NCBI RefSeq assembly: GCF_024029775.1
Contig: NZ_CP097122.1
Coordinates: 62,001 to 126,000, forward strand
Direction: 5' to 3'
Length of the DNA stretch: 64,000 nucleotides
Source: Fructobacillus americanaquae
Lineage (GTDB): Bacteria > Bacillota > Bacilli > Lactobacillales > Lactobacillaceae
Shown here: positions 39,781-63,943 of the stretch, in pieces
How the letters are laid out: each line of letters begins with the position of its first letter
Numbering within the stretch: position 1 is the stretch's first letter
Notes under the pieces: model-generated
What the model was told of the DNA's origin: nothing
The model's input: only the letters and a program-made list of their open reading frames with translations
The model's database searches: none
Translations under genes and position numbers: made by a program

Positions 39781-39787
39781 GAATAAA

Positions 39788-39924
39788 ATCGATCGGGGAG
39801 TTTGTGTGACAGACTGAGAGGATGGTAGACCATCGACCCGAACACCTGAACCGGATAATGCCGGCGGAGGAAATCGTAGCTTTTTTTGTAATCGAGGACT
39901 CCTTTTGTGGGTGCTCGATTTTTT
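39788..39924 (+). promoter_or_regulatory. TPP riboswitch with terminator (leader module 2)
   Basis: A clear THI element: P1 CGAT / ATCG, GGGGAG, a P3 stem GTTTGT / ACAGAC, CTGAGAGG, a small stem GATGG / CCATC, GACCCGAACACCTGAACC, and the P5 signature CCGGATAATGCCGG followed by CGGAGGAA. A terminator AATCGAG / CTCGATT (39890-39920) and T run follow. Thiamine diphosphate should cause early termination and shut off the thiW operon. Confidence 0.95.
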
Positions 39925-39956
39925 CTTTTAAATCAGAAAGGAGTGTAGTGAATGAT

Positions 39957-40143
39957 TCACGGTCATTTGACCGTGCGGGATGAAGGGGAGCGCCTTGATC
40001 CTGAAAAAACAGCGATGGGAAGCCGTGTTCCGGCGTGAGAGGAGACCAAGTAGTCTCGACCGAACTTTCTATCAGTCAGGGGCTTGTCTGACTGGTTTAA
40101 CCGCTAAAGTGGGAAAGGAGCGCTGTTTTTTCGCTACCCCACT
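39957..40143 (+). promoter_or_regulatory. Third structured leader element, partly TPP-like (leader module 3)
   Basis: Between the TPP terminator and thiW lie: a hairpin CACGGTCA / TGACCGTG (39958-39975); GGGGAGCGCC (39986-39995) with GGCGTGAGAGG downstream; a stem GAGAC / GTCTC; then CGACCGAAC; and a hairpin AGTCAG / CTGACT. The 5' half and the TGAGAGG...CGACCGAAC core resemble a TPP aptamer, but the GGATAATGCC part is absent. GAAAAAACAGCG (40003-40014) is perfectly complementary to CGCTGTTTTTTC (40121-40132). The second arm can instead fold into a hairpin closed by AGTGGG / CCCACT, so two exclusive states exist. Confidence 0.55.
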
Positions 40144-40166
40144 GAATTTAAAAGGAGCGTTTTCAA

Positions 40167-40672
40167 ATGAAGACACAGAAAAAATTATCAACGAAGAAGA
40201 TGTTAGTGACTGCCTTGTTGGCTGCCTTAGCTTATGTTTTAAATAGTTTTGTCTATTTTCCGGCAATGGCGCCCTTTCAGCACTTCGTTGACGTTTTAGC
40301 CGCCGTTTTGCTGGGGCCATGGTACGGCTTTGCTAGTGCTTTGATTTGTGGCATTTTACGGATGATGTCCGGCAGGACAATTCAAGCCGTAACAGGGGCC
40401 ATTTTGGTCCCATTCTGGGCGGTTTGATTTATCGCAAAACCCACAACCTTTACCTGGTCTTCCTTGGTGAAGTGATTGGAACGGGGATTTTAGGGGCTTT
40501 GACTTCTTATCCATTGATGAAGATCTTTTATGGCTTGGACGTCCATAGGTGGTATTACTTCGTGCCATATTACACACCAGCTGCCATTGTGGGTGCTGGA
40601 ATGGGGTTGGCAGTGGTCTTAATTTTTCAAAAGACAGGCTTACTAAAGCGAATCCAGGCGAACTTGGATTAA
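40167..40672 (+). pseudogene. thiW: thiW, ECF transporter substrate-binding subunit, frameshifted
   Basis: ThiW is the membrane S component of an energy-coupling-factor transporter for a thiamine precursor, probably the thiazole. The first frame (40167-40427) gives residues with VLNSFVYFPAMAPFQHFVDVLAAVLLGPWYG and stops after TGAILVPFWAV. The second half continues one base back in frame: GPILGGLIYRKTHNLYLVFLGEVIGTGILGALTSYP to the stop at 40672. Adding one T to the run in GCCATTTTGGTCCC (near 40403) restores a single protein of about 168 residues with the family sequence. AAAAGGAG precedes the ATG. Real mutation, phase-variable run or base-calling error cannot be told apart here. Confidence 0.85.
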
Positions 40673-40722
40673 CTAAACACCGTCAATCAGGCCAAATTAG
40701 CTTTGGCAAGGGGAAGTAAGCG

Positions 40723-41378
40723 ATGAGCGATAGGGAATATTTGATCTTCGACCTCGATGGTCATTAGTTGATTCGATGCCTTTTTGGGAGAATTTAGCGA
40801 CTGAATTGCTTGATCGATATGGCATTGACCAGCTGCCAGTCGGTTTGCATAATCAGATTCAAACCATGACTTTAACGGATTCAGCCATTTTCATACAAGA
40901 ATTATTAGCGCTACCCGTTACAGCTGCCAACTTGGTGCAGGAAATGCGAGCTTTGATGGACCGACATTACCAACATGATATTCCACTTAAAGTTGGGGTA
41001 GCTGCATACTTACAAGATGCCTACCAAGCTGGTCATAAAATTGTTTTGGCAACGGCCAGTAGTTCAGTTTTGGCCAAAGACTGTCTTCGCCGGTTGAATT
41101 TATTGCCGTTTTTTGACTTTGTCTTTTCTTGTGAAGATGTTGGACAGGATAAAACAAAGCCCACAATTTATCAGGTTGCTGCACAATATTTTGACCAGCA
41201 GCCCAACAGGATTGCAGTCTATGAAGATGCTCTGTATGCTGCTGCCACAGCAAAGCAAGCGGGTTTTCATTTGATTGGTGTTTATGACCATCAGTCAAAA
41301 GAAGAGTGGACTGATTTACAAAAGTTAGCGGACGAAACGATTGATTTTGCCACAGCAGTAAAAGGAGAAAATAAATGA
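40723..41378 (+). pseudogene. HAD-family phosphatase, frameshifted in its catalytic motif
   Basis: A HAD phosphatase of the beta-phosphoglucomutase-like group, perhaps acting on a thiamine-related phosphate given its operon. From ATG 40723 (GGGGAAG upstream) it reads MSDREYLIFDLDGH and stops at 40767. Restoring one base after GATGGT (40756-40761) gives DLDGxLVDSMPFWENL and an open frame to 41378, including LATASSSVLAKDCL and CEDVGQDKTKPTIYQ. Without the repair, translation could restart at ATG 40776 but would lack the nucleophilic Asp and be inactive. It overlaps the next gene by four bases (ATGA). Confidence 0.85.
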
Positions 41379-63821: not shown

Positions 63822-63833
63822 ATTGTCTTAATC

Positions 63834-63922
63834 TTTTCTGTTTTCCCTACGCGTGTCTTAACACAACAGGTTCGAAGGGTCGGCTTGCGCACTTTCAGCT
63901 CCAAAGAGCTCCCCTAAACGGA
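63834..63922 (-). promoter_or_regulatory. TPP riboswitch upstream of thiT
   Basis: On the minus strand: TTTAGGGGAGCTC, GAGCTGAAAGTG, GACCCTTCGAACCTG, then a P5 hairpin TTGTG-TTAAG-ACACG and CGTAGGGAA. These are the conserved THI-box parts in order. A terminator follows before the thiT ribosome site. Confidence 0.92.
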
Positions 63923-63943
63923 CGTTATTTATTTGTTACCACC

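Follow-up and report, generated by a model that had tools for sequence, protein, structure and literature searches.

A candidate riboswitch class upstream of thiW that reuses the pyrimidine half of the TPP aptamer

Organization of the thiW leader

The window analyzed here is a 64,000-nt stretch of the Fructobacillus americanaquae genome (GCF_024029775.1, NZ_CP097122.1, forward strand 62,001–126,000), and all coordinates refer to it. Upstream of thiW, an ordinary TPP riboswitch and its intrinsic terminator are followed by a second structured stretch, composed of a TPP-like element and its platform. The parts of the locus, all on the plus strand, are as follows:

39784–39889 (+): ordinary TPP riboswitch aptamer, 5′ of the element (RF00059, 70.1 bits)
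39890–39929 (+): intrinsic terminator of the TPP riboswitch, ATCGAG...CTCGAT with a T run (direct sequence)
39958–40142 (+): whole second structured stretch (TPP-like element plus platform), after the TPP riboswitch terminator and before thiW
39958–39975 (+): hairpin hp0, CACGGTC/GACCGTG (direct sequence)
39978–40001 (+): hairpin A, 4 bp, a G·G mismatch and 4 bp, with the hexaloop GGAGCG (39987–39992)
40003–40014 (+): 5′ strand of the closing helix P1, GAAAAAACAGCG (own versus swapped leaders, p = 2e-15)
40012–40021 (+): conserved GCGA(U)GGGAA, whose GGG is the counterpart of TPP G17-G18-G19
40022–40034 (+): stem P3, GCCG/CGGC, with loop TGTTC; the outer pair varies (G-C, C-G, U-A, G-U)
40035–40041 (+): GUGAGAG junction; UGAGA corresponds to the TPP J3-2 T-loop U39–A43, the pyrimidine pocket (sequence comparison)
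40042–40057 (+): stem P3a, GAGAC/GTCTC; 100% paired in 96 sequences, with 4 of 5 pairs changing on both sides
40058–40062 (+): GACCG, counterpart of TPP A47-C48-C49; the conserved module ends here (40062)
40065–40117 (+): P4-like helix, CTTTC (40065–40069)/GAAAG (40113–40117), around species-specific hairpins
40121–40132 (+): 3′ strand of P1, CGCTGTTTTTTC, pairing perfectly with GAAAAAACAGCG 106 nt apart
40109–40142 (+): competing hairpin, GTGGG/CCCAC plus AGCG/CGCT, which shares part of the P1 arm and excludes P1 and P4
40151–40157 (+): Shine-Dalgarno sequence of thiW (direct sequence)
40167–40672 (+): thiW, S component of a thiazole ECF transporter, split into two frames (TIGR02359 on both pieces)

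Alignment with the intact copy of Fructobacillus sp. EFB-N1 shows that the thiW frame is split where one T is missing from a homopolymer near 40401. In the same comparison (region 40167–41378), the HAD-type gene after thiW carries small indels near 40750–40761. Two indels so close together point to mistakes in the assembly and not to genuine pseudogenes. The genome has five TPP sites by RF00059, and the element is not among them; a TPP riboswitch at 63827–63925 on the minus strand falls barely below the Rfam cutoff (54.2 versus 54.3 bits). The genome also encodes thiE and thiM, and a tenA-thiD-like pair, read from the sequence, lies behind another TPP riboswitch.

The original prediction described a TPP-like variant with two exclusive folds, beginning at 39957. 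Its motifs, including the perfect 12-bp pairing of P1, are present where it placed them, with the correction that the hairpin at 39958–39975 also belongs to the element proper. The GGGGAG that it regarded as shared with the TPP riboswitch is a coincidence: nucleotides 39985–39990 form the upper part and loop of a different hairpin, and it is GGGAA at 40017–40021 that truly corresponds to TPP GGGGNG. The AGTCAG/CTGACT hairpin, proposed as the replacement for the pyrophosphate-binding part, proves to be species-specific filler, the conserved element ending at GACCG (40062). Two further readings of this stretch were dropped: a short reading frame from 39954 (ATGATTCACGGT...), the start of which is not kept in relatives, and an intrinsic terminator at the T6 run, which is not conserved.

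Distribution and gene context

A search of homologous thiW leaders, as the prediction had proposed, recovers the same element well beyond the window. It follows the TPP riboswitch in the thiW leaders of four further Fructobacillus species, giving five with that of the window, and in those of two other Lactobacillaceae genera. In other Fructobacillus species, thiW is preceded by a TPP riboswitch alone, without the element. The exact pattern GGGAA..GTGAGAGG..CGACCG was searched in 397 Lactobacillaceae genomes and occurs in 7, each time in one of the element-bearing thiW leaders already found. A species-wide scan for GGGAANCC..GGNGTGAGAGG..CGACCG, with one genome per species and no gene criterion, yielded at least 118 stretches, nearly all from Clostridia, plus Veillonella and Floccifex; more than 110 contigs from these groups carry the element. 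Each stretch has GCGA(U)GGGAA, P3, GUGAGAG, P3a, and GACCG, and most have the GGAGCG-loop hairpin upstream. With a covariance model (R2), more members came to light in 5 other genomes from a 397-genome phylum sample and in 19 of 225 genomes of one order. Taken together, more than a hundred bacteria of gut and food conserve the element.

The Fructobacillus genomes (G000–G012) also differ in thiE. Where the element is present, in five species, thiE is a separate short frame of 216–230 aa. In seven species without it, thiE lies within a frame of 495–552 aa, which is probably a fusion with another enzyme such as ThiD.

Among the matches listed, 112 loci extend 350 nt or more past the element, and in all of them thiazole-salvage genes come next, as judged by tblastn. 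The first gene is thiW in 108 of these loci and thiM in 3; in the remaining one, a gene for an MTH1187-type thiamine-binding protein precedes thiW. In 85 of the 112 loci listed, thiM lies within 5 kb. Most of the loci found with R2 that have an identified gene agree with this thiazole-salvage context. A TPP riboswitch core is located within 600 nt upstream in 93 of the 118 matches listed and in 0 of 97 control windows, and a run of five or more T residues separates both elements in 84 of these 93 tandem leaders. Several of the other 25 elements follow genes that, as read from their C-terminal sequences, appear to be thiC (HMP-P synthase) or thiE.

Some loci depart from this arrangement. One leader (L115) has the reversed order of element, TPP riboswitch, and thiW. 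A subtype reading GGGAG...UUGAGAG (L224 and L225, from genomes G1240 and G1227) precedes a gene for a putative PhnD-type ABC transporter binding protein, not thiW; in L225, this protein is accompanied by a PhnC-like ATPase, and G1227 has a normal copy of the element before thiM as well. The PhnD-type system could possibly transport a phosphorylated thiamine precursor.

Secondary structure and relation to the TPP aptamer

The folding energy of the window's element, a single sequence, is modestly better than that of its shuffles (z = −2.5). The model contains 17 pairs; in an alignment of 96 distinct sequences, they are formed in 98.5% of cases, and 13 of the 17 change on both sides. Covariation in these sequences is 0.560, as compared to 0.177 when shuffled (0 of 500) and no more than 0.111 when partners are slid. 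Fitting the alignment to the model biases it in the model's favor, but the margin is large. P1, of which the 12-bp pairing in the window is one case, is longer in leaders' own pairs than in pairs swapped among species (117 leaders, p = 2e-15), and the competing hairpin predicted on the same arm (40109–40142) behaves likewise in 61 leaders of relatives (p = 1.7e-8). Both p-values are too small because related species were counted as independent; the covarying sequences are plainly visible. Both P1 and the competing hairpin are supported in relatives. The latter is discontinuous in the window itself and in relatives typically reads GGAAGCG..CGUUUCC, right before the Shine-Dalgarno sequence.

In hairpin A, all eight pairs show changes on both sides in the 96 sequences, and the loop is GGAGTG, or GGAGC followed by G, T, or A, in 116 of 125 sequences. 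The P3 loop is UGUUY in nearly all members from the species-wide scan. As judged by eye, most relatives seen have a hairpin of unrelated sequence at the hp0 position, their P4-like helix reads CUUCC/GGAAG, UUUUC/GAAAA, or UUCCC/GGGAA, and no consistent complementarity that would allow kissing is found between the GGAGCG loop and the P3 loop. The P4-like region contains no TPP P4/P5 signature. The conserved bases all lie within the 5′ module ending at GACCG. GCGA, which was not part of the search pattern, precedes GGGAA in 122 of 122 distinct sequences and is invariant even in leaders where no P1 partner turned up. In Mediterraneibacter-type leaders (L083, L086, L095, L114, L148, L162, and L192), the core is present, but no GGAGCG hairpin adjoins it and there is no TPP riboswitch; the hairpin seems to be located at a greater distance 5′ of the core, with an extra stem between them.

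Such conservation bears on the possibility that the element is a decayed duplicate of the TPP riboswitch that it adjoins and with which it has motifs in common. Strong conservation and covariation in more than 100 species, also where no TPP riboswitch is nearby, leave this explanation with next to no probability, and it was rejected on the basis of conservation across five Fructobacillus species, two other genera, and more than 110 clostridial contigs. The original prediction held that absence or loss of pairing in relatives with intact thiW would point to such decay; this is not the overall pattern. Among Fructobacillus species whose thiW is intact, some lack the element.

Rfam searches do not place the element among TPP riboswitches. 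The region 39900–40200 gives no RF00059 match up to E = 10, leaders L136 and L085 give none up to E = 5, and no plausible Rfam family matches the element on either strand even at E = 10. TGAGAGG, the small stem, and CGACCGAAC nonetheless match the TPP riboswitch at 39784–39889. Model R1 was built from six leaders and no TPP sequences, with loop and linker letters removed from two leaders for alignment. When it was run on 395 Lactobacillales genomes, it matched, apart from members, just 15 sites at E ≤ 0.05, all of which have the sequence of TPP riboswitches. In 10 of the 12 tandem loci examined, its weak matches lie where Rfam places the TPP riboswitch. True members score at least 50 bits and TPP riboswitches at most 33.

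The residue numbers used here are those of the E. coli thiM aptamer, mapped onto the element. The element shares with the TPP riboswitch the P3/P3a arm, GGG-N-N, the UGAGA T-loop, and ACC, which make up the pyrimidine-sensor half, as well as a closing helix P1 and an association with thiamine genes. GGGAA, UGAGAG, and GACC occur in all members. In the TPP aptamer, U39-G40-A41-G42-A43, G18-C48, G19, and A47 bind or stack on the HMP ring or brace its pocket (PMC3764141, PMC7824784); all of these positions are invariant in the element. However, U20, G21, and C38 of the TPP riboswitch are A, A, and G, such that an A·G replaces G21-C38 beside the pocket. Because these flanking positions differ, the pocket may be altered relative to that of the TPP aptamer. 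A rare subtype (L205 and L223–L225) has G and U or A there, which suggests that the flanking positions touch each other.

The pyrophosphate sensor P4/P5 (U59, G60, C77, G78, A80) is missing from the element, and CUGA...GCGNAGGGA of TPP P4/P5 is absent directly 3′ of GACCG in the leaders inspected. The invariant GCGA and the GGAGCG-loop hairpin stand in its place. The weak R1 hits to TPP riboswitches, the invariant pocket, and the absent sensor nucleotides bear out the idea of a TPP-like RNA with its pyrophosphate half replaced. A circular permutation of the TPP aptamer (GCGAUGGGAA compared with TPP GCGUAGGGAA) is unsupported because only one helix separates GCGAUGGGAA from UGAGAG.

With its conserved aptamer-like module and mutually exclusive structures near the ribosome-binding site, the element has the general features of a riboswitch. 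A structured leader that is bound by a protein or otherwise acts in translation, with no small-molecule ligand, would agree with the Shine-Dalgarno-like appearance of the GGAGCG loop. The element nevertheless has traits typical of aptamers, namely long invariant unpaired stretches, a TPP-like pocket, a tandem position behind a metabolite riboswitch, and a wide spread across the phylum Bacillota, which render a ligand-free leader improbable.

Proposed ligand and mechanism, and comparison with known systems

The retention of the HMP pocket and the loss of the pyrophosphate sensor indicate that the ligand should carry an aminopyrimidine ring and should not be recognized through a TPP tail. Building on the established RNA, helices, gene association, and tandem order, we infer, at slightly better than even confidence, a cis-acting riboswitch of a class outside Rfam that reuses the TPP pyrimidine half, binds a non-TPP molecule containing the HMP ring, and turns thiW on when bound. 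The most likely ligand is HMP-PP or HMP-P. The precursor sensor originally envisaged before thiW is supported to this extent, although the specification of a precursor without phosphates is not, since HMP-PP or HMP-P would fit the gene logic better.

In the proposed mechanism, low TPP would cause the upstream riboswitch to let transcription through, and the second element would then check for the pyrimidine precursor. Ligand binding would keep GCGA in the aptamer and open P1, allowing the competing hairpin to form, freeing the thiW ribosome site, and switching thiazole uptake on. Without ligand, P1 would form and cover the site. The combined logic would be NOT TPP AND HMP-PP. Cells carrying the element salvage thiazole, and free pyrimidine precursor, once sensed, should create a demand for it. 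Because no conserved base lies 3′ of GACCG and GCGA does not vary even without a P1 partner, P1 is read as the expression platform, and its role as an OFF platform with ligand binding as ON is favored. The inclusion of the start codon in P1 in Veillonella, and the pairing of the P1 strand with the ribosome site in short leaders (p = 0.04), are in line with such a role of P1. The TPP riboswitch keeps P1 closed in its bound state, a precedent that would make the element an OFF switch and that counts against ON. In a thermodynamic folding proxy for opening of P1 by ligand, Shine-Dalgarno exposure is no greater than with a control constraint. The Fructobacillus species that have thiW without the element also count against the best explanation.

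An OFF riboswitch for thiamine or TMP, a TPP aptamer minus its pyrophosphate sensor that closes P1 and silences thiW when bound, would likewise account for the kept pocket and the lost sensor. When P1 is formed, the ribosome site is covered both in short leaders, where the P1 strand pairs with that site slightly better than in swapped controls (p = 0.04), and in Veillonella, where the start codon lies inside P1. Unpublished TPP-type variants for thiamin or TMP from the Breaker laboratory, mentioned in a review (PMC9481103), lend it further weight. However, restriction to thiazole-salvage genes is odd for a thiamine sensor, and those variants are still classed as TPP riboswitches, whereas the element has no RF00059 match even at E = 10; we regard this alternative as unlikely. 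The gene association with thiazole uptake and phosphorylation could instead point to an OFF riboswitch that senses what ThiW/ThiM deliver, thiazole (HET) or HET-P, with the TPP likeness an inherited scaffold only. This is a rather unlikely case, as the TPP-like conserved part is the pyrimidine pocket and the TPP riboswitch holds the thiazole of TPP by nothing more than a hydrophobic contact.

If the preferred reading of an HMP-ring sensor is correct, the element would be a new riboswitch class, tied very strictly to one set of genes in abundant gut bacteria, many gut Clostridia among them. It would also exemplify a rare change of aptamer ligand by swapping half of the binding site, and would be the second RNA logic gate that balances both halves of vitamin B1. 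The element provides an RNA for ligand screening and a way to test directly if ThiW-family transporters import thiazole under pyrimidine-supply control.

The element is not included in Rfam 15, and no description of it was found in the non-subscription literature searched. The unpublished TPP-type variants resemble it as TPP-related RNAs of other specificity that occur in tandem TPP sets, but are described as within the TPP class, whereas the element escapes the TPP model (PMC9481103). Their sequences are not public, so the element may overlap or be identical with some of them. A functional parallel is the validated TPP/HMP-PP tandem (thiS motif) that controls thiW of C. lundense by NOT-TPP-AND-HMP-PP logic (PMC6478431). 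Like the HMP-PP riboswitch, the element is a second unit behind a TPP riboswitch having its own terminator, with thiW among its genes (PMC6478431); among the matches listed, the tandem occurs in 93 of 118 and the thiazole genes in 112 of 112. In its described architecture, the thiS motif is a short terminator-embedded hairpin, whereas the element is a module of several helices that lacks a terminator. Its aptamer does not lie within an intrinsic terminator stem: the T6 run seen in the window is part of P1, and many relatives do not have it. By this comparison, the element appears unrelated to the thiS-motif HMP-PP riboswitch but parallel to it in tandem logic. We give even odds to its being an HMP-PP or HMP-P riboswitch class in which one half of the TPP aptamer was kept and the other replaced, a second, independent RNA solution to the task of the thiS motif.
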